Shown: in pieces, positions 62 to 63,143 of the stretch
How positions within the stretch are numbered: the first letter of the stretch is position 1
Layout: every line of letters begins with the position of its first letter
Source: Isoetes taiwanensis
Taxonomy: Eukaryota > Streptophyta > Lycopodiopsida > Isoetales > Isoetaceae
Direction: 5' to 3'
DNA: 64,000 nucleotides
Assembly: GCA_021234155.1 (NCBI GenBank)
Contig: JAJEKV010000071.1
Location: forward strand, 4,836,483-4,900,482
Notes under the pieces: generated by a model
Database searches by the model: none
What the model was told of the DNA's origin: nothing
The model's input: only the letters and a program-made list of their open reading frames with translations
Made by a program: the position numbers and the translations under genes

Positions 62-2967
62 CTACCCCCATTCAATTGCCTTTAACCTTTGCCTCTCTTC
101 CTTGGCCCTACGAACCAGGTTCAAAAATCCAGAGGGTAGCCCCTTCTTCTTGTTCTGTAAGAGTAATGTGAGACAAAGGCACAAACACATAACATATTTT
201 TTGCAAAACTTACCCAAACCCATCGGGTTAGCTCGTGCTCTCGATGATCTTTGCCTCGTGGTACAACTTGGGTACAAAAGTTTGCACTCCTCCCAGTCTT
301 CTAGGTTGAGCTGCTTCATTAACTCGGCCTGGCAAGTGACAATGTCTTTCTGACTGCAAAGGGAAAAATATTATAAGACAAAAAAAGGTAGAAAAAAACA
401 TGGCATAGCAAGTGAGGCTTTTCTTTGCTTTTAAGACCCTGTAACTGCGTCCAGGGTACAATGCTCATATTTTTTTGTTTTGATTCACCACCTTTCTTTG
501 GTTTCTTTCCTGCGTCTTTAGCTTGTCCTTTGAGCTCCCCATCTTCGAACATACAAAAAATTCTTTCTTGAAGATCCCACACCAGAACGGTCAAACGGTT
601 TAGTCTTTGAATGGCGAAGAGGATGGGCACGGCGGTCGGTCGCGGTATAAATTTATATCAGAGGTAATGCGGCGGCGGTAATTTATATCATGTCTGCTCG
701 GTATAAATTTATATCATGACTGTGCACGCGGTATAAATTTATACCGCCGTGCAGCACCGCAGATAAATTTATACCATGATTGTGCACTGCAGATAAATTT
801 ATACGCTGACGAGCTTCTGTATAAATTTACACCGCTGCGAGCACCGCGGTATAAATTTATACTGCGTGCCAGGTGATGAATTTATACCGTCAAGAAGGCT
901 ACTACAAGATTCTAACCACGCTAAACATACTACAAAAAGATTGAATTGAATCTTTTTCGTACTTGACCATCTCTCAAAGCTTAGCCGAAGTAGTTATCGT
1001 ATTGTTTGACACCATAATGGGCTTCTTATCAGAATCATAGCTCGGGCAACACTTTCCACACGGGCTTCTCGAAGCTCTTGAAGCTTATTCTTACGTTTTT
1101 GAAGTCCTCTCCATGCATTTGTTTGAACTCCACGCATTCTCGATGCATGAATCGGATCTTATCTATTAGGCTCATTTTTAACCGAAAAGTCATTGTCAAG
1201 ATTGTGACTTACGGCAATGACTTTTGCCTCTTAGATGCGTGATACCCACGTAAATATGGGCTTCGACGCTTTTCCACACCTCGCTACGGGTTTCCTCCTT
1301 TGAGAGTTCTTTTCTAGCCTTGTAGCCGTGTGTGCCTCCAAGGACGTAGTAGGTGTAATCTTCAAGTTCCGCTTTTTTAACAATCACGCAATCGATTGCA
1401 TTGACTTCTATCAACCATAACAACTAGAGGCGACACATGCGCATGAGGATTTCTTCTCATTCTTTGCTTAAGAATGGCCACATGTGCCGCGTACAACTTT
1501 CGGACCTGCAGCACTCTGACCCCATCTTCATTTTTTGGTGGCCTCTTGATAGTGCTTAGTGTCAAAGAAATGGTTTGTTTGAGCAGTTTGGTTTCATTAA
1601 CCCGCTTGAGAATAGCACTTGACTTATCTGCGGGCTTCACAACGATGTCTGCTCCAGGAGCCTTCTGAAGAGCTTCTGCTGACTCCTCTATAGTCAAGGG
1701 CTTTGTTTTTCTAGATTTTTTCTTGGTAGGAGGCTGTGTATCTAGTACCAGGGAATGCTTCCTACCCTTTCCCTTTGTGTTGACTGGTTCCTCCTCTTCC
1801 TCTTCCTCTTCCTCTTCCTCTACCTCTTCCTCTACTACTTCCTCTTCGATAGTACGGGGGTACCATAGACCCTTGACCAACACTTTTTCTTCGCACAGCA
1901 CTATTGACATCAGAATTTCTACTACGTCCTGTAATGCAGGGTTATGTTAAGAGACTGACGGTATAAATTTATACGGAAAGCAACTAAGAATTACTTACAA
2001 AGCCGTTCTTGTAATTGTCCGAGATGTAATCGTGGACGTCTTTAGGCTTGCACATGCTTAATTTAAACATTTTAGTATTCAGAACATAGTAGACGGGGCC
2101 CTTGTCATGGTTGCACTGCATTAGAACTTCATCATCGTTCTCTGTAGCAACAAGTTTCATAATGTCGCCAGCAGGGTAATAATCATCCGACTTGAACTTG
2201 CCCTTCCCTGATTTATTGCACAAGTAAAGGTACGTATCAGTGGGTTTGCTCTCTCTTGCGCCCCTGTGGACGTACCAAGTGTGATCCTTTAGTTCATAAG
2301 TCTGTGGCTCTGGTGGTGCAGCCTTTGATGATGACCCGGAAAACGCGCAAAAAAAATCATTTTTACACAAGAATATTAACCTTTTTCGAGTTTTTGAAAC
2401 ACAAAAACAGTAGAAAAAGAGGATAAAAAGGCATAAAATCTACACTAAATTAACACTTTATTTGTGTCATTTAAGCTAAAAACACAACAATATTACGAAA
2501 ATATTAAGGTTCGGGACCATTCGTTGAGCACTGGACATCAAAAATCTGAAATAATTCTAAAACGGTATAAATTTATACGGCTCGAGCACGAGCGGTATAA
2601 ATTTATACCGCCTTCGACAACTACGGTATACCGACCGTTTCTATAGAATGTATAAATTTATACCGCCAGGTTCGAGCCGTGATAAATTTATACTCTGATA
2701 TCGACCGGTTCTGCACGCAGATAAATTTATACCGCTCGTGCTCGAGCCGTATAAATTTATACGCCTTGTGCTCGGCGCAGATAAATTTATACCGCTTCCC
2801 GAAGACTTATTTTCGAGGCGGTATAAATTTATACCGCTCGGGCAGAAGGCGTATAAATTTATACCGATCCAGAATCATCTCGGTATAAATTTATACCGCG
2901 GGCTTACACTCAATGATTAAAACAAAAGAGAAACTAAAAAAAGCGGGAAGTAGACTTACGTGGCCAT
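62..2967 (-). CDS. Element A gene with ParB/sulfiredoxin-like domain
   Basis: Spliced minus-strand gene of unnamed function. Exon 1 (2967-2960) is only ATGGCCAC followed by GTAAGT. Exon 2 (2380-1999) joins in phase, adding a 127-residue segment rich in Tyr and Lys with no family I recognise. It ends at a GTAAGT donor, and a 70-bp intron (1998-1929) leads to exon 3 (1928-1213). Exon 3 has a long Glu run, a basic KKKSRKTK patch, then a ParB-like segment: a VRxLYAAHVAxL helix with NPHAHVSPLVVMV, and, after a one-base frameshift near 1410-1440, YYVLGGTHGYKARKEL, matching the G-x-H-x-x-x-A signature of the ParB/Srx fold. It closes at a GTAAGT donor at 1212. Less certain downstream exons lie near 1170-1020, 630-450 and 350-62, ending in a lysine-rich tail with a stop at 62. 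The frameshift may be decay or an assembly error. The ParB call comes from reading the motif, and the intron phases support a real gene. Confidence 0.5.
646..886. repeat. Palindrome cluster A1 (TATAAATTTATA core)
   Basis: Nine intact or degenerate copies of the palindrome GGTATAAATTTATACC start near 646, 676, 702, 732, 762, 792, 820, 850 and 874. Start-to-start spacing is 24-30 bp, most often 30. The sequences between copies are short, GC-richer and different from each other. The cluster lies between putative exons of the minus-strand ParB-like gene. Confidence 0.85.
2566..2897. repeat. Palindrome cluster A2 in intron 1
   Basis: Ten clear copies of the TATAAATTTATA core start near 2566, 2596, 2651, 2682, 2720, 2750, 2780, 2822, 2852 and 2884, with an internally deleted copy near 2626. 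Spacing is mostly 30-32 bp. Some intervening segments are themselves dyads, such as CTCGAGCACGAG and its inverse around 2581 and 2738. The whole cluster sits in the 579-bp first intron (2959-2381). A single extra copy near 1959-1972 lies inside the 70-bp second intron. Confidence 0.85.
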
Positions 2968-4754: not shown

Positions 4755-6475
4755 TTGGAGAAACCGAACAACAAACACAGAGAACAACAATCTTTGGAAA
4801 GGAGAAAATTGACAAAACATAGGAAGCCTTTGGAACAACCACTCAACTACATATCGCTTGTTATTGATGGAATGGACGTAAGAAGACCACCCTACCACAT
4901 TTTGTCAATGTGCCTAAGGATGTTCTTGAAGAAGATTTCATACATCCGCATGTTGTTGGTTCTATGGTATTTAATGGAAAACTATCTTGCAAGGCATTTT
5001 TGAATTATCCAAACATTCATGCTGATCCAAATCTCACTATCACAATATTGAATAAGCTTCTTTCCAATCTAGAACATATACCACCGGTTCGTATCTTGAC
5101 TAGACAACACGACAAGGGAAAATAAGAAAGCGTTGTTTGCTTATGTGCTATGCTAGTAGAGAAACAAATCTTCAAGAAGGTGAAGATTGGTTTCCCGCTT
5201 GTTGGTCATACACACGACCAAATTGATCGGGATGTTCAAGAGGTTCTCTAAACGTCTTTGCGAAAAAAAGCTCTCGACCTACCAGCAATGATTGAGGTTA
5301 TCCAAGATTCCTACAATCCTCGCCCGGACATCGAGTTGTTGGAAGAAAGAAACTTATGATTTCAAAGAATGGATTTTTGAAGAGATCAACTGGGTCACCG
5401 TGCTATTGAGCCCTTGAGAAATATTACATTTCAAGCATCAGATCAAAATTTCACTTGTAGATGGCGGGGCCATCTTACAAGGAAAGAAATATTCCACATC
5501 TTTGCAAATTGGCGACCATCGCCAGGTATTCAATTCATTCGCACCATCCCCAATACTAGTTCCATGCTCTCAAGCAGAAAGCAAATGCCTCTAAAAAGCT
5601 TGAAAGAAATCACAAAGAGTAAAAAGGAGGGAAGAGCATTTGACTCAAGCAAATCATTGGATTTTATTGAGACAAGTATTGATCGTGCTCTAACCACTTT
5701 GGGAGGCAGATGCTTTATGGTGGCCTCGCTTTTTTCTAAAAGAGCGTGATATTTTGCAAGCTTCATTACAAGGTCGAAGACCAGTTACATTCAACTGGCC
5801 ATCTAGGCAAACTCTCCCTGTGCAAGTTGATAATCAAGAGGAACATGTAGAGATATTGGCTAGCTCAGATGAAGATGACAGAGTCATGTACACTGGCCCC
5901 AGACGCACAGCACAACAAGTTGCTCGAGTATCTGGTTCCCCTCAGAGATTCAGAAAGGAATGCTCATAGCTGTCCCAGCTGATAATGATGAGTCTGGGAA
6001 GCCGTTCTGGCTAGCTAAAGTACTGGAGGTAACAAGAGAGGATGGAATTCCCACTCAACTAAAAGTGCACTGGATGAGAACAAATGCTGCCAGTGCTTTC
6101 AGTGGGAGTTATACTTTGGAGATGGTAAAAACAGGAGTGGGAAAGAGAGCAAAGTCCAAAGCAAGTACTGCTGTCATAGATCTATCTGAAGTGAAGGTTC
6201 TTGCATATGACTTTGTTCTGACTGCTGCTAATAAGTTACGTATGGTCACTCAAACTTTAATAAGGTCAGCATGTGGATTAGACAAACAACCTAGAAAGGT
6301 GGCCAAAAAAGATGATGATGAGGACTCACTTGTAGACAGTGAGGAAGAAGATCGTTCGAGTACATCCAGTTTTGAGAGTGAAGCTGAGGATGAAGGCTCA
6401 AGTGATCAGGGATTAAATGAGTCGGAGGATGAGATGCATCCTGATCTTGCTGCAAAATGTAAGTTTGTCCGATGA
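4755..6475 (+). pseudogene. Decayed DUF7869-type transposon gene
   Basis: Successive plus-strand frames, interrupted by shifts and stops, spell one protein of the plant DUF7869 type. Visible in order: LNYISLVIDGMD (about 4842-4875), LPHFVNVPKDV region, PNLTITILNKLLSNLEHIPP, LDNTTRENKKALFAY (about 5098-5145), then LVEKQIFKKVKIGF and LVGHTHDQIDR (about 5150-5230). The D-N-x-x-x-x-E-N-K and G-H-T-H-D-x-I-D motifs are hallmarks of the family and look like metal-binding acidic residues of an RNase-H-like core; that catalytic reading is inference. The C-terminal part (5754-6475) is the best preserved: a KPFWLAKVLEV segment, HWMRTNA, and an acidic Glu/Ser/Asp tail. At least three frameshifts are needed to join the parts, so I call it a pseudogene. 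Confidence 0.6.
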
Positions 6476-9968: not shown

Positions 9969-12092
9969 ACAATATGCCACCTAGGCTCCAACATGCTAAG
10001 GTGGCTCAACCATGCCACGTGGGCTCCAACATGCCAATCTGGCTCAAACACGCCACCTAGGCCTCAAAGTGCCAAGGTGGCTCAAGCATGCCACCTAGGG
10101 TCTAACATGCCAAGGTGTCTCAAACATGCCACCTAGGCTCCAGCATGCCAGGGTGGCTCAACCATGCCACGTGGGCTCCAACATGACAATATGGCTCAAA
10201 CATGCCACTTAAGCTCCAACATGCCAAGGTGGCTCAAACATGCCACCTAGGCTCAAACATGCCAAGGTGTCTCAAAACATGCCGCCTGGGCCCACGTGGC
10301 ATGTTTGAGCCACCTTGGCATGTATGAGCCACCTCGACATGTTGGAGCCTAGGTGGCATGTTGGAGCCCACATGGCATGTTTGAACCACCTTGGCATGTT
10401 GGAGCGTAGGTGGCATGTTTGAGCCATATTGTCATGTTGGAGCCCACGATGGCATGGTTGAGCCACTCTGACATGTTTGAGCCACCTTGGCATGTTGGAG
10501 CCTAGGTGGCATGTTGGAGCCCACGTGGCATGTTTGAGCTTAAGTGGCATGTTGGAGCCTAGGTGGCATGTTTGAGCCACCTTGGTGTGTTGGAGCCTAG
10601 GTGGCATGTTGGAACCCATGTGGCATGTTTGAGCCACCTTGGCATGTTGGAGCCTATGTGGCATGTTGGAGCCCACGCGGGCATGTGCAGCCACCTTGGC
10701 ATGTTTGAGTCTAGGTGGCATGTTTAAGCCACCTTGGCATGTTTGAACCACCTTGGCATGTTGGAGCCTAGGTGGCATATTTGAGCCACCTTGGCATGTT
10801 GGAGCCTAGTGGCGTGTTATGAGCCACCTTGGCCTGTTGGAGCCGAGGTGGCATGTTTGAGCCACCTTGGCATGTTTGAGCCACATTGGCATGTTGGAGA
10901 CTAGGTGGCATGTTGGAGCCAGCGTGGCATGTTTGAGCCACCTTGATTTTTTGAGCCACCTTGGCATGTTTGAGGCACCTCTTGGCATGTTTGAGCCTAG
11001 GGGGCATGTTGGAGCCTAGGTGGCATGTTTGAGCCACCTTGACATGTTTGAGCTGAGGTGGCATGTTGGAGCCACCTTGGCATGTTGGAGCCTAGGTGGC
11101 ATGTTTGACCACCTTGGCATGTTTCAGCCACTTTGGCATGTTGCAGCATAGGTGGCATGTTGGAGCCCGCATGGCATGTTTGAGCCACCTTGGCATATTG
11201 GACCCTCGGTGGCATGTTTGAGCCACCTTGGGAAGTTGGAGCCTAGGTGACAAGTTGGAGCCCACGTGCCATGTTTGAGCCACCTTGGCATGTTTGAGCC
11301 ACCTTGGCATGATGGAGCCTAGGTGGCCTTGGAGCCCACGTGGCATGTTTGAGCCACCTTGGCATGTTTAAGCCTAGGTGGCATGCTGGATCCTAGATGG
11401 CATGTTTGAGCCACCTTGGCATGTTGGAGCCTAGGTGGCATGTTTGAGCCACTTTGGTGTGTTGAAGCCTAGGTGGCTTGTTGGAGCCCACGTGGCATGT
11501 TTGAGCCACCTTGGCATGTTTAAGCCTAGGTGGCATGTTGGAGCTTATGTGGCAAGTTTGAGCCACCTTGGCATGTTAGAGCCTAGGTGGCATGTTGTGA
11601 GCCACCTTGGCATGTTGGAGCTTAGGTGGCATGTTGGAGCCCCCGTGGCATGTTTGAGCTACCTTGGCATATTTGACCCTAGGTGGCATGTTTGAGCCTA
11701 GGTGACATGTTTGAGCCACCTTGGCATGTTGGAGCCTAGGCATGTTGCCCCACGTGGCATGTTTGAGCTTAGGTGGCATGTTTGAGCTTAGGTGGCATGT
11801 TGGAGCCTAGGTGTTATGTTGGAGCCCACATGGCATGTTTGAGACACCTTGGCATGTTGGAGCCTAGGTGGCATGTTGGAGCTCGTGTGGCATGTTTGAG
11901 TCACCGTGGCATGTTTGAGCCTAGGTGGCATGTTGGAGCCTGTGTGGCATGTTTGTGCCACCTTGGCATGTTTGAACCACCTTGGCATGTTTGAGCCTAG
12001 TTCGCATGTTGGAGCCTAGGTGGCACATTTGAGCCACCTTGGCATGTTGGAGCCTAGGTGGCATGTTGGTGCCTAGGGAGCCTAGGTGGCAT
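9969..12092. repeat. 19-bp-monomer satellite array with one inversion
   Basis: About 2.1 kb made almost wholly of 19-bp monomers of three subtypes: TGGCATGTTTGAGCCACCT, TGGCATGTTGGAGCCTAGG and TGGCATGTTGGAGCCCACG. They alternate in an irregular higher-order pattern. From the start to about 10290 the monomers read as the reverse complement, and from about 10297 to the end they read as written, so the array has one head-to-head switch at the CCTGGGCCCACG junction. Single-base variants and a few 1-3-bp indels occur throughout. Open frames on both strands (Pro/Arg/Leu-rich) are repeat translations. Confidence 0.9.
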
Positions 12093-50485: not shown

Positions 50486-51259
50486 CAAGTATTTTGGTTT
50501 TTACCAGATATAGTACCTATTTATGTTGTTTCTTATGTATGTCCTGGTAATGTATGATGCAGCTTAAAGAGTTATTTGCAGAAACAAGTTCGGCAAAGGA
50601 GTTTTAGGCTACAAAAATATGAAAAACATACAGGTAAAGCCTCAAATGCATCCTCTGTTTGTTCTGACAGTTTCACAGTTCTCTTTCTTAGGTTTTTTGC
50701 GCAAGGTAGTTTCTATAGGTTCTATAATGCTAGATTAAAATAAGGTTTTGGTTATGGTTGAAGGACAGAATATAGGTGCTTTATGCTATGTTAATCAGTG
50801 ATTTCAAAGTGTTTAGTAACTAGGGCTAAGAACTGGGATAAACTGGTGGCAGAAGTGAAAAAGGAGGTGTAACCATCATCCAATTAAATTGGGATTATGT
50901 CAACTCCAAAATCACGCCAACCTGCTATTGTCTTCTAGGGGGTTTTTGTTTTTTTTAATCTTTTTTTTTGGACTTCAAAAATAACATAAGGTTGCGATTC
51001 ACGTGTGACTTTTCATATGCGAATTGAAATATGCAGAAATGAAGAGCAAGTTGCTAACATAGATGAGACAAATATTGCTTGCTCGATAGATGATAATATT
51101 AGGTTTGATAATAACAAATTGCATTATTTGCGAGGCACTTCCAGACTCGAAATTATCGCTACATGGCACAAATATCATACAAAAATATCATATATTCCAA
51201 TAAAACATTAAGGGATCAATCCATGTTTTTCCACGTATTTAACAAGGTGTGGTTCCATG
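50486..51259. other. Spacer between ISU fragment and element D
   Basis: AT-rich, with T-runs near 50940-50970. LKELFAETSSAKEF can be read near 50570-50610 but fits nothing I know. No element boundary is recognised. Confidence 0.35.
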
Positions 51260-54100
51260 TCACCGTTCTATCCGGCCTGGTAACGAATCTAACACTTCAC
51301 CCACCGTCATCCCCATAGCCAAATTATGCATAATAGACACAAACTTCACGTAAAAATCATCCGTCAAGAAAGTTTTTGGATCGTAAGATGGTGGATTCAG
51401 GGCCTGTGTTTGATTGTAGAAGCATTTGAGAGCATCATCATCCACTATGATTATATCATCCTTATTCTCGATACCAAGTTCGTCCATCATGTTACTCAAG
51501 TGTTTGATGAAGATAGGCTTGCCTGTTGGATCCTTGGGATTAGTGAACTTCACACATTTGTTCTGATCCCAAAGGGTCAACCAATGTCTAAATATTTCCA
51601 AAGTGCCTCCAAAGTATCCTTGATGTTCCTTAGTTCCATGGATGACCAAATACCAACTTCGAAATAACACGAATGCCTCGCCTAGCATCTCCTTCAAGTG
51701 CGGCCGCGGATAGATCCACTTGGTGTTTGATTCTACCGGTGTTAATGAAACCGTTCTCTAGCCACTTTATTTTTCGGAAAAGTCTTGCAAAGGACTCCGT
51801 TTAGGTCGAACACCACAACCTTCTTAGAAACGCAATGGAAGCTGAAACATCAAACATGTATCCGGTCAGCAAGATACGATAACACAAACAATACAAACGC
51901 GCCAAGCGTGATTTGAAATAGTCATAACCAAATCGCGCTCGGCGTGATTTAGTTTGACAACGAAAAATAATCAAAGCACGCTTGGCGATTTAATTCAAAG
52001 GTAATACAAATTAAATCACGCTGTGGCGCTATTTAAATGGGCAAGGCCATACCTATCATCTTCGGGTTTTCGGCCGTCATCTATCCATCATTCTCCCTTC
52101 GCCACCCTTAATCTTAGTCTTCTTCGATTTGTTAGAATTGTTATTTTCTATTAGTTCCACAAGGTCCTTCACAAACTGACATTATTTTACTATTGATTTG
52201 GCAAACCTGCGGAATCACTAGAGCCGCCGTTGCCTTCATTTTCGGTTTCCTGTCAATTAGTTCATTGTTAACTTGTGAATCTACTCTATTGTTGCTTGCA
52301 TCACCGCAATGTGGGCAAAAATATTCCCTAAGTTAGCCGCCATCACGATTACTTTGAGCAACCAGTTTAGCGGCTATTTGTTCATTCTCGCTTTCCTTAT
52401 CAGTGCATAGATTACTAGTTCCCACTCCGAAGCAACGCCCACTTTCGAATTGGACAAGTCTACTAGACTTTTGATTGCTGATGATTTCAGGTTGCCATAA
52501 GGGCCTTTAGGAGACTTGGCAAGCACATGCATGAGGAATGGTTCAAGAAAGTCTTTGGCCTGCTCATCACTCACAAAGCAAAGTGACATCTTCTTGCACC
52601 CATAAGAGCCTCGGGCAATATAACCTCCAACATGAAGCTCCAAGCAGTTGTATCAATTGGAGCAAATGCCTCGACGAGGTAAGCAGCCATAGACGGGGAA
52701 ATCCATTTTTATTTAAGGGCCCTTCTCCTTAGTTTGTAGCTCGTGCTTGATTTCCCCACTTGGGGGGTCCCGATCCTCATCCTCTTTCTCGACTCATCCC
52801 ATTCTCGACCGATCCCGATCCGCTTTGAAAGAATATAGTTCTTATGTCCGGATCATCTAGAAGAAAACATTCCCATGCAATCGCTATTGTCACCCTTGGC
52901 CTTAGCAATATCATATTCCTCGCCCGACAAAGCATGGATATCATAATAAAGATCACATGTGCCATCTTCCGCCTGTTCATGACTCATTATCCTTAACATC
53001 ATATATTAGGCATCCCTCCCTAATAACTTTGAGGCACTCTGCATCATGAGCGCAGATAGTGCATGCAGATGTGACTCACCAAGGACAAACGATGACAATA
53101 GTGAAGGACCTCTCGGTTTGTCAATCCTATATACCGGTAAAGAAGCTACCGTAGTCCTTCCTCGGTTCATGCCCATATCTCCTCTCCCACCCCCGTTGTC
53201 CAACACAAAGAGTGATATATTTTTAAGGCCGGAAGTTGAATCGGCAAGAGACCTTTGTACCCAATGGAGACTGAATCATTTGGGATGTCGTCTTCTCCAA
53301 GAATCTTCTTCACAAGGGCCACTTTTCTTCTCAACTCGGCCCAATTACCTTAGGGGGTAGAGTCTCCTTATGTTTTGTATTTTTAGCCTTCCAATTCTTT
53401 AGGAAGTCCTTTGACCGAATACAAACTTCTTGATGTCATCATTATCGACCTTGTATTTGTCCAAAGAATCCAATTTCGGATAATGCCACATCCCCCGATA
53501 GCCTTTGTAACTAACTCCTCCAGGTGACTTCATTGTATCGTTACATCCTTTACATGATTGCAAAGACTCAACGAAGGACATCCTATCCTTGGTGAAAGCA
53601 CCCTTCTTGTATAAGACTTCCTTCTTTAAGCACCGGTCTAAAACCCAAATGGTCTCAAAGGATCGTTTAGCCCCCGAGTCTTTCTCATCTCTGTCACATT
53701 CAAGTCAAAGATGCTTACATCAGCGGGGAGGCACCCTACCCATAGTATCGGCGGCTTCCCTTGTGCATAAGCGTCCTGCATTCATTCCACTTGAGCCATC
53801 GCCTCCTTACAAAACACAATCTTATACGAAACCGTTGGTCCCGACTCTTTGATGAGCTTTCGGAGAAGGATCCGCAATGTCATCACCACCTTTTTCTTTG
53901 ATTTTCTTGCGGTCTTCTTCTTCTCAGTATAATTGTTGCGCGACAGAAGTCCGCTCCAAAGAGCTTGAATGCCTCGGACTTTGACCCGCCCTCGCCCGGT
54001 GGGCAATGGGCAGCCATATTCCACCCAATCGCTGACGGGCGGGCGCAGCTTGTTCAACGATGGACCGCAATAGTACGTACATTGAATCAAAGATCATAGA
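51260..54100 (-). CDS. Element D downstream exons, unknown function
   Basis: Minus-strand reading frames following the ParB-like block in the same element. From 5' to 3' on the gene strand: 54090-53782 (YYCGPSLNKLRPPVSDWVEY, then a KKKTARKSKKK basic patch), 53581-53399 (SCKGCNDTMKSP, YRGMWHYPKLDSLDKY), 53260-53006 (SLFVLDNGGGRGDMGMNRG and FVLGESHLHALSALM), 52980-52800 (DGTCDLYYDIHALSGEEYD), 52643-52374 (HVGGYIARGSYGCKKMSLCF and DEQAKDFLEPFLMHVLAKSP), and 51697-51260 (IFRHWLTLWDQNKC, ending VLDSLPGRIER). They are hydrophilic, protein-like and consistently on one strand, but split by introns or frameshifts I cannot all resolve. I recognise no enzyme family. They could be one large gene or several. 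Confidence 0.4.
51896..52032. repeat. Palindrome cluster D1 (CACGC-GGCGTG type)
   Basis: Four sites, GCGCCAAGCGTGA, GCGCTCGGCGTGA, CACGCTTGGCGA and CACGCTGTGGCG, centred near 51902, 51939, 51981 and 52022. Spacing is 36-42 bp, with AT-rich segments between. Confidence 0.8.
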
Positions 54101-54109
54101 ATAGAAACA

Positions 54110-54362
54110 CGCGCGCGCGATTTGAATAGAATTGATGAAGAGAAAAATCACGCCTGGCGTGAAATGAATAAAGTTACTAATGCAATTCCACGCCAGGCGT
54201 GCTTTCAAATCAAACCAATTCACGCCGGGCATGTTTTCAAATCATCGAATCACGCGCGTGTTTTCAAATCAATTGGTTGACTTGAAAACACTGGCGTGAA
54301 TTGATTGATTTCAAAACACCGGGCGTGAATTGGTTTGATTTGAAAGCACGCCTGGCGTGAAT
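54110..54362. repeat. Palindrome cluster D2 in intron after ParB-like exon
   Basis: Sites of the form CACGCCTGGCGTG, CACGCCAGGCGTG, CACGCCGGGCATG, CACGCGCGTG and CACCGGGCGTG are centred near 54155, 54195, 54227, 54256, 54292, 54321 and 54353, with spacing 29-40 bp. AT-rich spacers share TTTCAAATCAA, and 54187-54362 as a whole is an imperfect dyad. Confidence 0.85.
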
Positions 54363-54388
54363 ACAATTTATGAAACCAGGTTGATTAC

Positions 54389-55600
54389 CTTTTGTATAGA
54401 AATGTCTTCCCCATTTCATTCAAAGTTGCACTAATCTCAAACCAAATCTGCAGTGAAGTATTGGCATCCAAGATACGACACCTCCTATACGCATAGTGAT
54501 TGTAGAACACTTTTTGGCCTGTTTGTTCTGCCTGCCTGATGATGGCCTTTTGTGCCTCAACGGAATGCTGCCCGTCGATGATGACATATTTAATATCATC
54601 ACTTGATAATATCTCCTGGACGTTCGTCCACACAGCAGGCTTGTTCGAGATCATATCCCAAGGTAGCACATCCGCTGGCATAGGCATTTGACCTGGATTA
54701 CTAATCATGCTCTGAACAATCTCCATGGCATGTGCTGGATCATATCTTCTGCTAACATAAATGGAGCTTGGTGAACGGATGAGGGACTTCACATGGATCG
54801 CAAAAGTTTCCTTAAGACCCAGTGGATAATGGTCAGAGTATTTATTCAGCTTGTTCATGGCCTCTAGCTGCGCCACTCTGTCCTGTTCATTCTCAAAAAC
54901 AGAAGCCTCCATGCCTTCGACAACTGCAGGTTGAACATCCTTCCCTAGATCTAGGACCCTCTTAGAAGCTTTCAAGTCAGCTAATTCCCTAGCTTGCTGC
55001 AAATAGTGACTTGGTGTCGGTTTAGTGAACATGCCTCTACGCACAGCTGTAACCCCTTGGCAAATAGATATTGGCGAATCGCTACATTGGTTGGCCAACC
55101 ATACTTAAAACATGTCTCACCGTTCACATCTGTCTTCATGAACGTATCCTTGTATGCAGTAGCTCTACAGTGAGTAAGTCTGAGCAGATCTTTCTTCTGC
55201 TTCTGTGTAATCTCCAAGAGCAATTTGCAGTTGGTGTCATCCTCTTCCTCACAAGAGATTAGGATCCCTTGTTTGGCCATCTTGTCTGCTTCCTTTTTCC
55301 TCGAGAAGAGAGTTAAGTCGAGCTTGCCATTTGTCTTGGCAAGGTCAACGCATTCACTCGGCACCCTCGTCCATTTCCTCTTCGAGGCGTGCGAGGGTCA
55401 TTGGTTGCTATAAGAATCGGCCCTTCATCATCTAAGGTGAGATCATATGGTGCTGCATCACGATCCGGGTCGTCCCTTGCTTTCTTGGCGTGATTAGAAC
55501 TTCGAATTAGTAGGGGTTTTCTTCCTCTTGAGCATCGCAAATGAAGATGAGCACTTTTTAGAGTACTTTTTCGGAACAAGAGATCACGGCAGGCGTGCAT
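54389..55600 (-). CDS. Element D ParB/sulfiredoxin-like protein
   Basis: Minus-strand coding block joined from three frames: 55600 to about 55385 (basic HAKKARDDPDRDAAP and LTLDDEGPILIATNDP), about 55385-55050 (RVPSECVDLAKTNGKLDL, TQKQKKDLLRLTHCRA), and about 55050-54389 (TAVRRGMFTKPTPSHYL onward). The last part carries the ParB/Srx-like features: YDPAHAMEIVQSMISNPGQM, PADVLPWDMI, and YVIIDGQHSVEAQKAIIRQA, whose D-G-Q-H-x-x-x-A motif is typical of the ParB-N/DGQHR fold, then VFYNHYAYRRCRILD. It ends TFLYKR at a GTAATC donor (54388), and an intron packed with palindromes follows. Two one-base shifts (about 55385 and 55045) may be decay or sequencing error. ParB-fold proteins bind DNA and can bind or hydrolyse CTP; whether this one does is unknown. 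Confidence 0.5.
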
Positions 55601-55645
55601 TTAAACCTAAATTAGTACAAATCACGCTTGGCGTGTTGGTATCTC
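55585..55645. repeat. Palindrome pair D3 at the start of the ParB-like block
   Basis: CACGGCAGGCGTGC and CACGCTTGGCGTG lie about 38 bp apart, overlapping the first codons of the open frame that begins at 55600. Confidence 0.75.
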
Positions 55646-56709
55646 CTATTATTGACCATGCTATCGTTAATTTGAAACTAAATTATTTTGCATCCACATT
55701 TTAAGCTACATACCCTTCATGAATCCATATTTCACACTATTTAACCTCATTGAACATTGCTATCTCCAACTGTCTAACACCGCTATATTCTATATATAAA
55801 ATGAGCAAAATTATGTTCTCTAAGCGGACAATCGAGCATTGGCGATGTTAATATTTTAAAATTCATGCAAAGCATAATAACTCAAACTCATGCAAAGCAT
55901 ATTATCTCAAGGCAAGGAAATATCTCAAATTCATGCAAGCATAATACTCTCCACAAAGGTGTATACGTGGGCAAATTAAATACCTTGAATAGGGTTACGG
56001 TATTATGCGATCAACGCCCTCCAAGCTTGAGAAGAGCCGGGTTTAGAGATTCCTCTTCCACCGCTTCCTCCCTCCTCGCCGTCGCCTCGACCTCGATTCG
56101 CTTTAGAAGACATCTCACGGAGTCGCCTAGTATGAGTAGGAAGATTTCCGGTCGGATGATTTCGAGCCGCTTTCGAAGAAATAGCTTTTCTACCAGATGC
56201 GAGGGAAATAGAGAAATTTGAATTTCAAGAAAACACAAAAAATGGGTTTGAAATATTCTTGACACATACAAATAATAATGAGCGAAGACCCGCCCGTGGG
56301 CTTCTTTCATTAAGTTTTTAAAACCAATCTACCCAAAAAGTATCATGCCAAATTTATCCAGCCTAAGCGTAGTTAACCTAATCTTTCTTCTAATTCAATT
56401 TTCCGACCGGGAGGAGTTTCCATAGCGCCTTAAGCTTCTCAAATCAGCTTCGTGAGACTCAAATCAGCTTCTCAAGAATGGCTGCAATTGGTACTCATCT
56501 CATTCCAATAGCTTGAACATTAATTTCCAATAGTAGGTGTCAATAGCAATTTTTCGGTCGGTCGAAGATGAATGTTTCATGTTAACTACAAATCAGAAAA
56601 GGAAAGTAGGATTATGCAAGATCGACTCCATCGATCCGATTGTAAACTGTCATGGAATTCGCCGGGGGATAAGTACGTCCGGAAGTTACTGATTGATTAA
56701 CTCACAAGG

Positions 56710-57577
56710 CTATGGATGAAGCTTTACTCGCAGACACTCCCGGTGGGGATACGGTTGGAGAAAGTGTTGGAACATTTGTTGCATGGCCAAGAAACCTTTA
56801 AAAAGGTATGTAACATGTATTACATTGTAGAAATATAGAAGTAGACAAAATTTGTTGTATTCATTGGAAAAGATTACAATTGTATATAATCGGATAAACC
56901 GATAAAAACCGCATAAAATCCTGTGATTATCTTGTTTCAAGCCCACTCCGAGTAGCCGGGCTATCGATACTCCCATTTCCATTGGTAGGGGGCATAGTGA
57001 ATTCTTCTCGTAAAACCCCAAAGAAAAAACACTGTGCTCTAGCTCCACCACCCCCCGCCGCTCCACCTCCACCTCCCACCTCGCCCGCCTCACCGCTCCC
57101 TGTTGAACCTCCAATGCATCGTATAGCGCCTGCGGTAGTGGTTCCATTGGTTGAGCCATCTCCATTGCATCGTATACCGCCTGTGGTAGTGGTTCGTGTT
57201 GGGGCATCCGGGCATAGAGGCTAACCACTAAGAAACGCAGCTCCTCATTTTGAATCTCGAGCTGACGGATGCGAGATTCACTCTCGATCAATGCATGTAC
57301 TGCATTCTCGAAGTGATTAGATAAGAGGGCGAGCCTCCGTGCGATTGCAAGGGCCCCAGAGCCCAGATCTATCATTGCCCCAAGGCTCCGCCATCATCAT
57401 TACTTGATCCAAGTACTCCGGGGTTGCAAGATCGGTGCTCCCGAACCGGTGCTCTACGTGGTTCAACGGACTCGAGATTGAGCCGAAACCGAGCTGGGCT
57501 GTGTGATTGCTGGCCCAAATGTAATTCCAATCCATCTTCGCTACCAACCGGTGATTAATGTAACCGGCATCTATCAA
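56710..57577 (-). CDS. Element D coiled-coil segment with internal repeat
   Basis: Two overlapping minus-strand frames join near 57370: YINHRLVAKMDWNYIWASNH and LATPEYLDQVMMMAEPWGND, then ALAIARRLALLSNHFENAVH, SRIRQLEIQNEELRFLVVSL and a tandem 16-residue repeat (EPLPQAVYDAMEMAQPM / EPLPQALYDALEVQQG). The Gln/Glu-rich helical stretch predicts a coiled coil. No domain is recognised. It lies between the ParB-like block and the duplicated promoters of element D and probably belongs to the same transcription unit or a sister gene. Confidence 0.4.
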
Positions 57578-57602
57578 TAGAGGAAGTGAGCCGGATTATC
57601 GC

Positions 57603-57915
57603 GATTCACGCTGGCGTGTTATATTTCTTTTATTTATAAACTTAGAAACTAAAGAGACACGCGGCGTGTTTAGCGAAAAAGTTGAAAGTAGGGATACAAT
57701 TGTTTGCACATTTATGTAAACCGCTATATAGGAAAACTATACACGCTCGGGTATGCATTCAACGTCACCAGTGTAAATAATTGCCTGGCCTTTATCTATT
57801 TACTTATCTATCTGTACATTACAGGTTTTTTTTTTCTCCCTCCCTGCTGAATGCACGCCGAGCGTGTATTCATGTTGAAGGCCAAGGTTACCATAAAACA
57901 CGCTTAGCGTGTTTC
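57603..57915. repeat. Palindrome cluster D4
   Basis: CACGCTGGCGTG (57606), CACGCGGCGTG (57658), CACGCTCGGGTATG (57740), CACGCCGAGCGTG (57853) and CACGCTTAGCGTG (57899), all variants of the element D dyad. Located upstream of the coiled-coil segment. Confidence 0.8.
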
Positions 57916-58282
57916 AAATATTATCTTCAGATTTTTTTCTAATGCTTTCTACTACACTTATTCATAATAGAAACTTGCATGCAATAGCATGATTAATTCA
58001 GAAGAGAAACTCAAGAATTTACTCGAAACAAAGAAGCGTAGATGAAGTTTATAAAAACTATTCTGGTTTTCATAAACATCATCCGCTTCCTCTCGCTCGA
58101 GCAAATGCAAAAGCTTGTCTTCTTGGATTAAACCTCCGCCATTGAGATGCAACTTAAAACTAAATGAAAACTAACCTTGAGTTCTCGAGGCTGGAAGGAT
58201 TCAAGAACGGAGGACTATGCTTGTGGTTTTAATTAGGGAGGCTTTTCAATCGCAGACCTTAGTCCCTCGCTTTTGGTTTTAC

Positions 58283-58500
58283 CTCGAGTCTCCATTTCCT
58301 CCGCCATGGATGCTCTGTAACAAAAGGCTGAGTCTTTTAGTAAGTTAGAATTGCCAAACCAAACATCTAACATTGATGAATATAAATCGCTCACCAAGAT
58401 TTCGGACTACGGATCCAAAACACAAAGGTTAAACCGCAAATCGTATGAAGGAAGGAAGAAAATGTAGGAACTTTGAGAGCGTAAAATGGATTTATATAGG
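58283..58500 (-). promoter_or_regulatory. Element D promoter 1 and first exon
   Basis: The minus strand reads CCTATATAAATCC (58500-58488), then a leader with a probable intron (CTTG|GTGAGC near 58396 to GTTACAG|AGCATCC near 58314), and ATGGCGGAGGAAATGGAGAC (ATG 58307-58305), possibly spliced at CTCGAG|GTAAAA (58282). A spaced GCGTGTTAA...TTCACGC dyad lies 15-57 bp upstream of the TATA box. Confidence 0.45.
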
Positions 58501-58635
58501 CACAATTAGAAAAAGTTAGCGTGAATAATTGATTGCTTGAATTAACACGCTTTGGCGCACGGTCTTCCTCCTGGATATGACATGTATATGGTATATATGG
58601 AGAATATTGCATTTCATGCAATAAATTCTCACCAA
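58462..58635 (-). repeat. Promoter-region duplicate, copy 1
   Basis: Shares TTGAGAGCGT, GGATTTATATAGG, TTAGCGTGAATAATT, AACACGC and AATAAATTCTCAC in the same order and spacing with 59610-59755. The copies lie 1.15 kb apart and are direct. Confidence 0.75.
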
Positions 58636-59025
58636 GATTTTATTCCATTCATTGCATTCTAAAAAAAAAAAGAATTTCAAATTTTATATAGGCTAAATTA
58701 AAAATAATTTTAAAGGCAAAATTATCAAGGCTAAAAAATGACTTGTTGAGTTGGGGACTTGTTTTAGGTCGATAGGAAAATTTCCTGCATCTTTGCGTGA
58801 TTGATTTATAGTGTTCCCTAGACTTTGTTGAGACAAATGCGAGACAAAATTTTGGAGAAAACACTTTTTGGAGACAAAATGCTTGGAGAAAACAGTTTGA
58901 TTTTTATTCAAAATATTTTTATGTACGTAAAAACTGCTTTGAAGAAAACTGCTTTGAAGAAAAAAAGTTTGTGAAGAAAACTATTTGATTTCATTCAAAA
59001 TTGATATGTACAGATGCCAAGAATG

Positions 59026-59092
59026 GTTTTTACAAAATGCCCCGGTTTTTTACAAAATGCCCGGAAGGTTTTTACAAGATGCACCGGATTCA
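59026..59092 (+). repeat. Tandem TTTTTACAAAATGCCCCGG
   Basis: Three units of 20-22 bp. Just before it (58930-58985), CTGCTTTGAAGAAAA is also repeated. Confidence 0.85.
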
Positions 59093-59213
59093 GATCATTG
59101 ATCTTCCACTTCGAACAAAGAAGAAAGAAAGGTGTTAGAAAAGAAAGAAAGGTGAAAAAAAAAAAAAACAGACATGCAAACCTCGCTCATCTCTAAGCTA
59201 TTCTAAAAACTGG

Positions 59214-59642
59214 TCAATTCCTCACCTTCCTCCTCATCCTCTTCCTCCCCCTCCTCCTCCTCTTCCTCCTCCTCCTCTTCGAGATTTCATTCTCTGTTTC
59301 AGGGTCAAGCCAACCCTGAAGCAGAGCGGTTTCATGCTCTTGGGAGGACATCTCCTCCTCTTCCTCCAACTCCTCCTCTTCCTCCTCTTCCTCCTCTTCA
59401 GAATCAGAGGAATCAGAGGAGCTCAACTCCTCCTCTTCCATCTCGAATCAGAATCATCCTCCAACCGGAATCAGAGGAGAATTGGGCAAGGAAATCGATG
59501 AGCGGGGAAGAGAGGGTTTTTCAACCCGACGCCTTTGATGAGACCTCGGTTCTTCATGAAGCGCCGAGGTTGAACGCCATGGCGGTAAAAAAAAAAAAAT
59601 TGGGACGTAATGGTCTTGAGAGCGTGAACCGGATTTATATAG
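59214..59642 (-). promoter_or_regulatory. Element D promoter 2 and acidic first exon
   Basis: CTATATAAATCC (59642-59631, minus strand) is followed at about 50 bp by ACCGCCATGGCGTTCAACCT (ATG near 59582). The coding sequence then meets a stop after eight codons in this frame. With one- or two-base corrections it would reach the strongly acidic ORF 59441-59214 (MEEEELSSSDSSDSEEEE, with a long Glu run and then RRRRKRRRRGRKRM). Acid-basic composition parallels exon 3 of element A. The same GCGTG...CACGC dyad stands upstream of the TATA box. Confidence 0.45.
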
Positions 59643-59755
59643 GGTTAATTAGCTCTTAGCGTGAATAATTTATTGCCTCAAATAACACGCCAGCGCATTT
59701 AAATTCCAGCTATATTATCTAGGGTATATTATTATGGATAATAAATTCTCACGCC
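59610..59755 (-). repeat. Promoter-region duplicate, copy 2
   Basis: Counterpart of 58462-58635. Conservation is strongest from the TATA box through the dyad and again at the distal AATAAATTCTCACG. Confidence 0.75.
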
Positions 59756-60099
59756 TATTAGTTATATGTCTTTTCAGATCATATATCCAAATTTTCGATA
59801 ATTAAAATTTGGATATATTTATATAAATGTCATTTCCTTTGTTGTTGCCATGAAAATTTTGTTTTAAATGATTTCGCTTACGCCCATTGTTATTATTATA
59901 TTAAACCTATTTCCAAGGAATTTTTTGCTTTTAAAAAATTTGATTTACCTCTACATATTCCATAAATGTAACGTACTTTTTTTTATCTTATGGTGTAATA
60001 ATGTTTTCTTTACTCATTGACTAAAAAGGGTGCAATTTGCCTAGGTCAATGGTGCCTCTCCAACTCAAGATGGTGTGCAACATATTGAAAAGAGCAATA

Positions 60100-62220
60100 T
60101 CAATGAAAAACCAACTCCTAGCAAGAATGTTGAAGAAAACAATTAGTCCTCTATAGTAGGTGCAATGGAGGAACAAGAAGGTGAGAATCATGCACAAGTG
60201 CAACAAGGAAATAGTAGGCCAAGGAGTCATTGTGCTAGCAGATCCCGGTCAAGCAATTAATGATGAAAGGCTAGGGAAGACAATATTGGTATTGCAATTT
60301 GATGTTGGAAGACAACGGAAAGGTAAAGGTTTGGGTGACAAGGAATGTTTTGGTTGTGTCAAGCAATTGAGGTTCTTGCATCATGGCATGGCCTATAAGT
60401 AGTGTTCAATTTGTGGAGGATTATATTTTTCCGTGAGCCCCGAGGTTGTTGGGGACAATGATTGTCTTGATATTGATCCATTGGCGCTTGGAACTCTAAA
60501 CCTAGGCAAAAGGGGAGAAGTATCGGTTGCCGTGACATTATCCCAGCAAAAGAGCCAAGTTGATTAGTGACACCAAACGTGAGACAATGGTGAAGGTTAG
60601 GGGCCTCGATTGTTGTTGAGTGATTGTATGCAATTCTTCACAATAGAACAATTGGTGGAAGCAAGAGCCACTTTTCAAGAGTACAATCGTTGATGAGAGG
60701 AGGACCTACATGTACACAATCTCGAAAGCATGCACTTCAAGATGAAAGAAACCCAAACAGAAAAAGATACCCTTTGCTAGGCAAATGGATATGTGCAAAA
60801 GCATGGCGAGTATCCATGCAATTCCAACTTCTTCATGGCATAATTGGCAAAAAAAAAAACAAAAGAGGGGAACGTGATTGTTTTTTACATGGAAATAATG
60901 GTTTGTTGAGACCAATAAGCCTAGGACCCCGGCCGCCTGGGGAGATATTTGAAAAATATATTGATTTCAATGCGTAGTCTATGCCACACAAAAGCGTAAG
61001 GGATGAAAAGGGAAGAGCAAATTGTTGAGAAAAGGTTGCCATCACATTGTACTCAAAAGAGTATTTTGAAGAAGTGAATTCCCTACTTGAGAATTGGGAA
61101 TTCTTCCAATATCCCAACCTAGCTTTAGTAGGTTATGGAAGAAGCATTTCAATCATGTCACCATAGCAACTTCAAAAACAACTTTGCAAAGTGCAATTTA
61201 TGTGCTAAGTTGAAGGAGACTCTTGATAAGACTGTGCAACCTAGTCAAAGGGCTAGGATAAGGAGCATATGAAGGACCATATGACTTAATTAACTATCAT
61301 GTAGATCATGTTATTGGATGTGGAGGACTTTATCTGCATTGGAACCCAATAACTATTTATGTATTATACATGACAAGATGGACCAGCAAAAGACTTGTCT
61401 TCCACAATTCAAGTACATACCAAAGTCATGTGGAAGATCATACCCTTTTCTGCATCTCAATGATCGGGGCAATCTTGCATGGGCGTAATCAAACCTACTA
61501 TGGCCATTTTAGTTTGGAGTTGTGGAGTGATGGTCCAGATTTTCATATTGGGAGTATCATGAGGTGTTTGAGAAACTATGAAAATGGATACAATGGTCAC
61601 CTCCAGGACCTTACAAACTAGCCTGTGCACTACATAGAGCATTGTTAGATGGAAACCCTAACAATATTGAAAAGTTCAGCAAGGCAAGGTTTAGGAAGCA
61701 TGGGTCTAATGAACATGTTGGAGCTTCAACTTCACGCATAAACCTCAAGATCTACCCAAAAGGTTTCTCTTTGCAACTTGATAATTGTGCCGGCCAAAAT
61801 AAGAACAGTGGATGTTTTCTTTCCTATCCTACTTAACATTGTGGGGATATTTGAAAGAGTTAATTTAGGGTTTCTATGCCCGGCATACCCATGAGGATGT
61901 GGATGCATTATTTGGCAAATATAGTTGTATAATCAAGCAAAGAACAAAGGACCAACTTTCCTAGGCTAATGGAAATCTTGCATGAATGCACTACTCCAAA
62001 CCCTATAGCTTCTCTCATAGAAGAAGTGCCCCATTGGAAGAGCTTTGTGGATGGTTATACATTGGATCTTGAAGGTCATTCCAGGCCTCCGCAGTTCACT
62101 TTTTGGGTGAGAGATGGGATTCCAATCTTCCAATGGAAGATGAGACCTTCGTGAGGATGAGTGGAGAGGAGGGAGGAAATATGGCGTAGAGATGAGAATG
62201 GCAAGCCTATGATACCTCTA
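60100..62220 (+). pseudogene. Second DUF7869-type transposon relic
   Basis: Plus-strand frames, interrupted many times, give the same protein family as 4755-6475 but clearly diverged from it. In order: YPLLGKWICAKAWRVSMQFQ (about 60765-60830), FKNNFAKCNLCAKLKETL (about 61170-61215), IHDKMDQQKTCLPQF (about 61365-61410), ALLDGNPNN (about 61640), SLQLDNCAGQNKN (about 61770-61808), and HTHEDVDALFGKY (about 61885-61922), where the usual G before H-T-H reads R. The D-N-C-x-x-Q-N-K-N and H-T-H-E-D-V-D boxes are diagnostic. The part from about 61990-62150 has PHWKSFVDGY and PPQFTFWVRDGIPIFQWK. Stops and shifts show decay. An alternative is a poorly sequenced but live copy. Confidence 0.6.
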
Positions 62221-63143
62221 GGTCAACCAAAAGCTTTAAAACCCATCAAGAAGTGAAGCAATTGGGATTGACTAAGGAAGGAATCCAAGACTATATAAAG
62301 CATTACAAAACCAATCCGTGATGACACCAACCGTGCCTTGGTGGCTTACCGGAAGAAGGTGGTTGGGGAGATAGACACATCCTCCATGAATTGAAAGAAG
62401 GGTGGTTGCCTAAGACTAGGTGGAAGACCTTAGCAGGTGCCGAGGATTTTGATGACACCGTAAGTAGCATTCGCAAGCAATATGCTCCTCCTCCTTCCTC
62501 GACAAACACTATGTTGGTCCTAAGAACAATAGGCCAAAGTTTCTAGGCATGGATGCTTATGAACCTTCCATCGACTTGGAATGCCACCAATTTGTGGTAG
62601 TAAAGCCATCGATTTAGATACATATCCAAAGGTGGTTGGGGTTCACTATCTCTCGATATTTGCAAAGAAGAAGGTAATATTAACTTCAACCATGTGCTGG
62701 TGGAATGGTGGTGTCCAAAGTGCATCGGCTTGACCAAAAGGTACTCGCATTGTTGGACAAAGAGATGGAGGAGAAACTGAAAGTGATCCCGATCTTTGGC
62801 TAGACTATGAAAGTGTTTTGTACTCATGGACTCCAAACACTATTCCAGCTAGAAATGCGAGAATTACAATACCCTCGTGGATGTCGGGAAGAAGGCTATG
62901 ATATCATTGGGGGTGCTTGAAGAAAGTTGAATAACTATGTAAATTTTTTTGTTATCACGTTTTATGATATGGTGCTATATTGTGAAATATTGACTATTTT
63001 GTAAATAACATGATATTACGTTTTCATAAATTTGAGGTGAAATGTGTGAATTTGAATATGCTACTAAAAACATGCAATATGAAATTTGTCCCAAAATTAA
63101 GACATAAACCCAATTTAATTGAATGATGGTTGTGTGTTTCTAT
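62221..63143. other. 3' part of DUF7869 relic and AT-rich spacer
   Basis: 62390-62520 reads KGWLPKTRWKTLAGAEDFDD and IRKQYAPPPSS on the plus strand, probably the C-terminal part of the preceding transposon protein. 62930-63120 is AT-rich with no feature. Confidence 0.4.

Follow-up and report, generated by a model that had tools for sequence, protein, structure and literature searches.

Element D is a 12,261-bp segment (50871-63131) of a 64,000-nucleotide stretch of the Isoetes taiwanensis genome (assembly GCA_021234155.1, contig JAJEKV010000071.1, positions 4,836,483 to 4,900,482 of the forward strand). The whole stretch is referred to here as the window, and its numbering is used throughout. 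Element D is one copy of an abundant two-gene DNA transposon with terminal inverted repeats. Its two genes are divergent, with a DUF7869-type transposase gene on the plus strand and an accessory gene, encoding a ParB-like block and a phosphatase-like domain, on the minus strand. The element also carries arrays of a GC-rich palindrome, and related families in the same genome pair other ParB-like proteins with other palindromes. The existence of parallel families with family-specific putative operators is strongly supported by the comparisons below, and these suggest that each family recognises its own DNA through its predicted ParB-like protein. On balance, and with some reserve, we favour for element D a reading in which the ParB-like protein would recognise the palindromes of its own family, most likely keeping the genes of the element expressed against host silencing.

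Limits, termini and genes of element D

The ends of element D were placed where similarity to other genome copies sharply stops. The genome searched comprises 1,658,258,908 bases in 1,110 contigs, from which seven other D copies were fetched, four of these in part, with the upstream flanks of three added. The features are as follows.

50871..63131, minus strand (sense of the accessory gene): whole element D, from similarity breakpoints against other genome copies
50867..50870, no strand: target site duplication GTGT, low-coordinate side, 4 bp
63132..63135, no strand: target site duplication GTGT, high-coordinate side, 4 bp
50871..50893, plus strand: terminal inverted repeat AACCATCATCCAATTAAATTGGG, 23 bp, from end comparison among copies
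63109..63131, minus strand: terminal inverted repeat AACCATCATTCAATTAAATTGGG, 23 bp, from end comparison among copies
60045..62346, plus strand: transposase gene, broken, with the DUF7869 region at about 61740-62140; matched by the open frames of copies C1027 and C953 (tblastn, identity of the pieces 49-100%)
59616..59690, minus strand: promoter-like copy 2 with TATATAAAT, repeat families D8 and D10
59214..59447, minus strand: low-complexity segment, first acidic and then basic, attributed to the accessory gene; open frame
58473..58550, minus strand: promoter-like copy 1 with TATATAAAT, repeat families D8 and D10
57607..57911, no strand: palindrome cluster (57607, 57658, 57854, 57899), palindrome search
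55585..55635, no strand: palindrome pair (55585, 55623) immediately upstream of the ParB-like exon, palindrome search
54389..55534, minus strand: ParB-like exon with DGQHS, frameshifted in the window copy; predicted splicing, limits inferred from GT at 54388-54387 and CAG at the start in other copies
54108..54359, no strand: palindrome array past the ParB-like exon (54108, 54149, 54189, 54221, 54251, 54347), palindrome search and repeats
53445..54027, minus strand: accessory gene linker, broken in the window copy, tblastn
52168..53018, minus strand: accessory region resembling a degenerate methyltransferase, broken in the window copy; tblastn, weakly linked to family E and to the methyltransferase of family B
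51896..51946, no strand: palindrome pair (51898, 51934) ahead of the phosphatase exon, palindrome search
51211..51849, minus strand: NIF/FCP1-like phosphatase domain with DLNGVL, Pfam NIF

All four copies for which both ends were read start with AACCATCATTCAATTAAATTGGG, finish with a near-perfect inverse of it and are flanked by 4-bp target duplications (ACAC in the window, in minus reading, and TTAT, AATT and AATA elsewhere). The full copies (n=4) measure 12,261-13,714 bp. Genome-wide, the end sequence AACCATCATYCAATTAAATTGGG has 1,285 matches on the plus and 1,307 on the minus strand, compared to 0 and 0 for the reversed control; among 100 listed ends, 28 pairs face inward at less than 40 kb, and 15 of these 28 span 12.1-12.5 kb. 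A 4-bp target duplication is also typical of Sola transposons. A host-gene reading of the region was rejected on the copy number, termini and target duplications of D, and a retroelement or provirus reading on its DNA-transposon termini and on the lack of any such domain in the frames scanned.

An original prediction, made from the letters of the window, had confined the element to 51260-59755 and overlooked the plus-strand transposase gene; its limits have been replaced. The termini and target duplications that it proposed to seek by comparing insertion and empty sites were found, by comparison with other copies, as 23-bp repeats and 4-bp duplications. Its minus-strand gene with an acidic/basic segment (59214-59447) and a D-G-Q-H-S block is confirmed, and its promoters find their counterpart in the two promoter-like copies, whose repeated parts are 84 and 89% alike. 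Within this duplicated promoter-like unit (58473-58550, 59616-59690), half-sites GCGTG and CACGC stand 22 bp apart.

The window copy of D is decayed, the accessory and transposase frames both being broken. Pfam DUF7869 matches copy C1027 at E=9.4e-30 and copy C953 at E=2.2e-11, while the window copy was placed by tblastn. We infer that this gene encodes the catalytic transposase; the Pfam name itself denotes a domain of unknown function, and a literature search for DUF7869 found no paper. DUF7869 is abundant in this genome (the best 150 of 9,909 candidates were scored) and was found in none of 14 control genomes.

The accessory gene runs, in order, through the acidic/basic segment, the ParB-like exon, a linker, a third exon and the NIF/FCP1-like phosphatase domain. 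Several genomic matches to the ParB-like exon, of which the best 150 of 4,930 candidates were scored, have open frames of 405-408 amino acids (aa). Against a Pfam NIF cut-off of 21.8 bits, the phosphatase domain scores 23.6 in the window copy (E=4.7e-5), 57.8 in C1027 (E=1.4e-15) and 66.7 in the related family D2 (locus L054). Its first motif reads DLNGVL in D and D2. A NIF-like domain with D[LIVM]NGVL also occurs at five other loci (L049-L053, with DINGVL, DVNGVL, DLNGVL or DMNGVL), three of which (L049, L050, L052) have a RING-like cysteine cluster, read from the letters, besides it; many similar NIF matches of about 520 bp were also listed.

Family-specific palindromes and ParB-like proteins

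The D palindrome, CACGCCnGGCGTG / CACGCCNGGCGTG, has 2,137 matches in the genome compared to 1 for the reversed pattern. Between 51260 and 59755 there are 16 hits (up to 1 mismatch, gaps of 0-5, overlapping hits included), whereas 100 first-order Markov sequences give a mean of 0.5 and a maximum of 4. With gaps of 1-3, element D contains 13 palindromes and the remaining window 3; the same palindrome spaced NN instead of N gave nothing above chance. The clustered GC-rich palindromes of the original prediction are therefore real, although its count of more than 20 comes down to 13-16 in the window copy under the definition used. The seven other D copies, four of them partly fetched, hold 14-21 palindromes each. 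Over the eight copies 32 bp is the commonest spacing between neighbours, and the number of units in the main array varies from copy to copy. The palindromes sit upstream of and between the accessory exons, in the part of the element outside the transposase gene, and in the four full copies none of 68 falls in the first 3.3 kb or the last 0.8 kb.

Related families came to light in eight further DUF7869 loci and in the flank of element A, a second element of the window. Four of the eight loci (family B) carry TGTATTCCGGAATACA, often 42 bp apart; one locus (family C) carries GTATGAATTCATAC; one, together with the window element A, carries GTATAAATTTATAC about 28-32 bp apart (family A); and one carries AAATGGCGCANNTGCGCCATTT beside an A-type DUF7869 gene (family E). 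The last of the eight, L017, shows neither a recurring palindrome nor a ParB-like hit over 9.8 kb, and is possibly an accessory-less family or a truncated copy. Family D2, reached through a NIF hit, has the palindrome TCGCGCCNGGCGCGA, and its DGQHS block and phosphatase domain are 56% and 57% identical to those of D. Exact palindromes are again frequent genome-wide compared to reversed controls (A 12,556 against 17 for GTATAAATTTATAC, D2 695 against 0, E 448 against 0). A single base in each half-site separates the palindrome of A from that of C, and likewise that of D from that of D2. The frequent spacings of about 28-32 bp (A), 32 bp (D) and 42 bp (B), seen at L019, L018, L035, L002 and other loci, are near whole turns of DNA, as if the sites lay on one face of the helix.

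The ParB-like gene of families A, B and C reads VLGG(N/T)HS. In family B it runs on into an N6/N4 methyltransferase (PF01555, E=2.7e-16), and family C, in which methyltransferase motif I is present, probably carries one as well; a motif search in the listed A loci, which are short or cut, saw none. Where DUF7869 and A-type ParB hits lie at most 8 kb apart (150 listed rows of each), 20 of 21 pairs are divergent, as are all 21 pairs with B-type ParB hits, the latter drawn from 30 of 150 rows chosen by eye for shared contigs and thus not a fair sample. Upstream of family E, stretch L047 has a divergent DUF7869 gene (E=4.9e-38), whereas L048 has none and a histone gene instead. The latter (L048:2106-3515, plus strand) is a 470-aa open frame that adjoins the E copy, matches core histone at E=9.2e-27 and is probably a host histone H3 gene.

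The case for family-specific putative operators includes the co-variation of palindrome and protein among loci picked by protein similarity, not by palindrome. In a table of 42 loci (A 13, B 9, C 4, D 7, E 8, D2 1), exact sites match the type of their locus in 277 of 281 cases (A 142/142, B 43/43, C 10/11, D 40/40, E 37/40, D2 5/5). When 41 loci, six of them the sources of the six class queries, are classed by their ParB-like protein alone (tblastn), the best class equals the label in all 41, and own-class palindromes make up 273 of the 277 exact sites. Of these 41 loci, 40 hold one or more exact palindromes of their own class. The exception is L041, which has a 16-residue E hit only and no palindrome. 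L015, which has B palindromes and no ParB-like hit and was labelled by its palindrome, belongs to the 42-locus table and stands outside the 41; L013, fetched for its DUF7869 gene, is counted as E by its ParB-like hit and has 3 A-type sites near its A-type DUF7869 gene; L017 is in no matrix. Among the neighbouring stretches without a ParB-like hit (L008-L010, L011, L047, L048, L054), L011 has 1 A site, L047 has 3 E sites and L054 has 1 D2 site, and the other NIF loci (L049-L053) have neither a ParB-like hit nor a palindrome. Among the 31 loci with a readable ParB core, labelled by their palindromes, core identity never falls below 0.70 for loci of the same palindrome class and never exceeds 0.67 for loci of different classes. 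The proposal that elements A and D represent distinct families built to one plan, each with a palindrome of its own, is borne out, and the D palindrome does differ from the GTATAAATTTATAC of element A. A lack of co-variation between protein clade and palindrome, which the original prediction had named as grounds for its refutation, is not what these loci show.

The position of the palindromes relative to D-type ends bears on which component they follow. An inward-facing D-type end lies within 13 kb on at least one side of 16 of 16 D2 sites (both sides 8; 10 of 10 clusters) and of 36 of 50 D sites (both sides 12; 14 of 22 clusters), compared to 0 of 50 A sites (8 clusters) and 0 of 15 E sites (4 clusters), and the reach of such ends covers at most 2% of the genome. 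The sites checked were all 50 listed D sites, 50 listed A sites, and 16 of 50 listed D2 and 15 of 50 listed E sites, ends being listed up to contig C124. Two palindromes thus seem to go with one kind of terminus. Because D-type ends neighbour the palindromes of D and of D2 alike, although the two sequences are unlike in each half-site, it is apparently the ParB-like protein, and not the ends, that the palindrome follows. These observations also bear on whether the palindromes might be bound by the transposase, like the internal or subterminal repeats of hAT or CACTA elements. Repeats recognised by the transposase are common near the termini of DNA transposons, and the D palindromes do lie inside the element. 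However, the terminal 3.3 and 0.8 kb of the four full copies are free of them, and two unlike palindromes adjoin the same kind of end, so that we consider this explanation quite unlikely.

Two other parts of the window may be recorded here. Element A (1 to about 6500) extends below position 1 and is cut by the start of the window; its parts are a DUF7869 remnant (5147-5347, plus strand), a ParB-like exon (1377-1946, minus strand) and 13 exact copies of GTATAAATTTATAC. At 10272-11367 (minus strand), a GC-rich stretch has open frames of a repeated 'NMPPRLQHAKVAQTC'-like unit.

Domain labels and points against the proposed self-recognition

The label 'ParB-like' is a motif-level call, because curated hits remain sub-threshold and AlphaFold confidence is low. 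Among the families, the D and E blocks are homologous (hhalign probability 96.3, E=1.9e-9, 147 columns), and the E and A/B/C blocks are probably homologous (78.1, E=1.8e-5). DUF6551 is sub-threshold in A/B/C. Neither the D exon, nor the D phosphatase domain, nor two profiles found a convincing match among solved structures, and scans of viral and bacterial/archaeal contigs with the A/B/C ParB profile confirmed no relative. As for the third exon of D, gene order and motif would fit a degenerate methyltransferase, each link being weak: it aligns to the E exon at hhalign E=0.0047 (probability 7.5), the E exon to motif I of the B methyltransferase at E=0.0086 (probability 4.7), and the D exon to B directly at a weak probability of 1.8; Pfam gave no methyltransferase hit in the D frames scanned.

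Bacterial ParB proteins have a GxRR motif, and their parS sites are clustered palindromes. Element D resembles this system in its G-x-H-type motif at the place of GxRR and in its clustered palindromes, which are class-specific here and putative binding sites; it differs in that no curated ParB hit exceeds the cut-off, no ParA partner was seen and there is no partition context. The parS/ParB analogy of the original prediction thus survives as a protein with clustered palindromic sites, and not as partition, there being no curated hit above cut-off and no confident fold. A ParB/parS-like partition or maintenance role in an extrachromosomal stage of the element would account for the ParB-like block and the clustered palindromes. 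However, the copies that were read end in terminal repeats and sit between target duplications in the assembly, and Pfam scans of the frames given show no ParA-like ATPase, which makes such a role highly improbable. A further likeness, to the DndB/DGQHR proteins (PF14072), consists of the D-G-Q-H motif and a sub-threshold match only.

Several findings weigh against self-recognition through a ParB-like protein. Compared directly, the D and A/B/C ParB blocks are not significantly similar (hhalign probability 0.8, E=0.07). No curated ParB model of Pfam or NCBIfam exceeds its cut-off: TIGR03764 ParB reaches E=0.003 and 17.3 bits in one B protein (cut-off 143.75), DndB reaches E=0.025-0.031 and 13.8-14.1 bits in D (cut-off 29.1), and the ParB-type sub-threshold hits sit among others of similar strength. 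AlphaFold models of the ParB-like exon and the third exon of D have pLDDT values of 30.5 and 30.4 (alignments of 12 and 5 rows). FCP1-type phosphatases have a catalytic DxDx motif, of which the D phosphatase domain lacks the second Asp, and its activity is doubtful because DLNGVL stands in that place. Past constraint on the ParB-like exon is suggested at most tentatively, by a mean dN/mean dS of 0.58 (21 pairs from seven D copies, one partial; pairs 0.33-0.78). Moreover, L024, L031, L032, L038 and L044 have one exact own-type site each and L041 has none, one of the 21 DUF7869/A-ParB pairs lies on the same strand, and the putative sharing of ends by D and D2 rests on positions.

The conservation of the palindromes also belongs here. 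In the two stretches that could be compared (a third gave no palindrome columns), aligned palindromes are no more conserved than their flanks, with pairwise differences of 0.280 against 0.134 and 0.096 against 0.071. This is expected under turnover by tandem duplication, and equally under neutrality. The palindromes might accordingly be neutral tandem repeats whose family differences stem from separate ancestry alone, which would also suit the variation of array length among copies. However, between A and C and between D and D2 the half-sites change together with the palindrome kept, and exact palindromes persist in numbers genome-wide; we therefore regard neutrality as unlikely.

Predicted self-recognition and known systems

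In the favoured reading of element D, the ParB-like block, probably dimeric, would bind the palindromes of its own family and so mark the element's own copies, at which the effector half could then act on chromatin or the transcription machinery. This half would be a methyltransferase in B and probably in C, and in D and D2 a degenerate methyltransferase-like region with an FCP1-like phosphatase. The outcome would most likely be that the genes of the element are kept expressed despite host silencing, the family-specific sites confining the effect to its own copies. Such logic would be that of the VANC proteins, achieved with other building parts. The accessory protein may instead simply repress or activate the two divergent genes of its own element and have no anti-silencing role. 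Its sites do cluster around and between the accessory gene's own exons, and sequence alone does not separate activation from self-repression, a further point against the favoured reading. However, arrays between exons and methyltransferase or phosphatase domains exceed what a simple repressor needs, which is an argument only. Plain autoregulation is possible and, in our estimate, rather doubtful; sequence-specific self-recognition with an anti-silencing role appears more likely.

VANDALs are Mutator-like elements with a 9-bp target duplication, and VANC is not known to carry a ParB-like block. According to PMC5735166, the anti-silencing VANC proteins of the VANDALs of Arabidopsis bind short motifs that are specific to each family and stand in arrays within the introns and upstream regions of the element that encodes them. 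These arrays evolve by tandem repeat formation (PMC5735166; PMC10398659). Family-specific motif arrays in non-coding parts, as set by the predicted exon limits, are likewise present in D, and in both systems arrays gain and lose units and motif and protein change together. Unlike VANC, the D-type motifs are palindromes and the protein has a methyltransferase or phosphatase-like half; with 4-bp duplications and DUF7869, D does not classify as Mutator-like.

PMC12477816 describes Sola1-1_Ec32 of Ectocarpus, in which a gene for a 1104-aa ParB-like and N4C/N6A methyltransferase protein stands opposite the transposase. Its authors propose that such proteins may bind and modify their own element, and they cite green and red algal proteins (Iyer 2011; Petroll et al.). 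Both Sola1-1_Ec32 and element D are large DNA transposons in which a ParB-like accessory gene is encoded opposite the transposase, and family B shares an N4C/N6A-type methyltransferase. With this Sola-1 precedent of ParB and methyltransferase (PMC12477816), and with terminal inverted repeats, 4-bp duplications and a DUF7869 gene, the original suggestion that D is not a standard transposon superfamily is not upheld. In D and D2, by contrast, a NIF/FCP1-like phosphatase domain is present and any methyltransferase-like region is degenerate, their putative DNA sites are visible as family-specific palindrome arrays (the word 'palindrome' is absent from the main text of PMC12477816), and the host is a land plant. 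Element D would thus work most like VANC and is built most like Sola1-1_Ec32. Among the papers listed in searches of the open-licence PMC literature, none reported palindrome arrays of this kind or the phosphatase variant.

More tentatively, and with the odds somewhat against it, these families may form a new self-recognition class. Their ParB-like proteins would read family palindromes, the effector would have shifted from a DNA methyltransferase to a CTD-phosphatase-like domain acting on the transcription machinery of the element's own copies, and new families would arise when protein and palindrome change jointly under unchanged terminal repeats.

ParB-methyltransferase genes in eukaryotic transposons have been noted before, with binding and marking of their own element as the suggested role. 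Here the sequence itself shows the likely targets, with six protein classes and six palindromes in one genome, four of the palindromes (A, D, D2, E) counted genome-wide at hundreds to thousands of exact copies. With likely targets readable, what these proteins bind becomes testable by one gel shift per family. If true, this would be a second case, unlike VANC in its parts, of transposon families that differ in their self-recognition code, and the phosphatase variant would point to the transcription machinery, and not DNA methylation, as the target.

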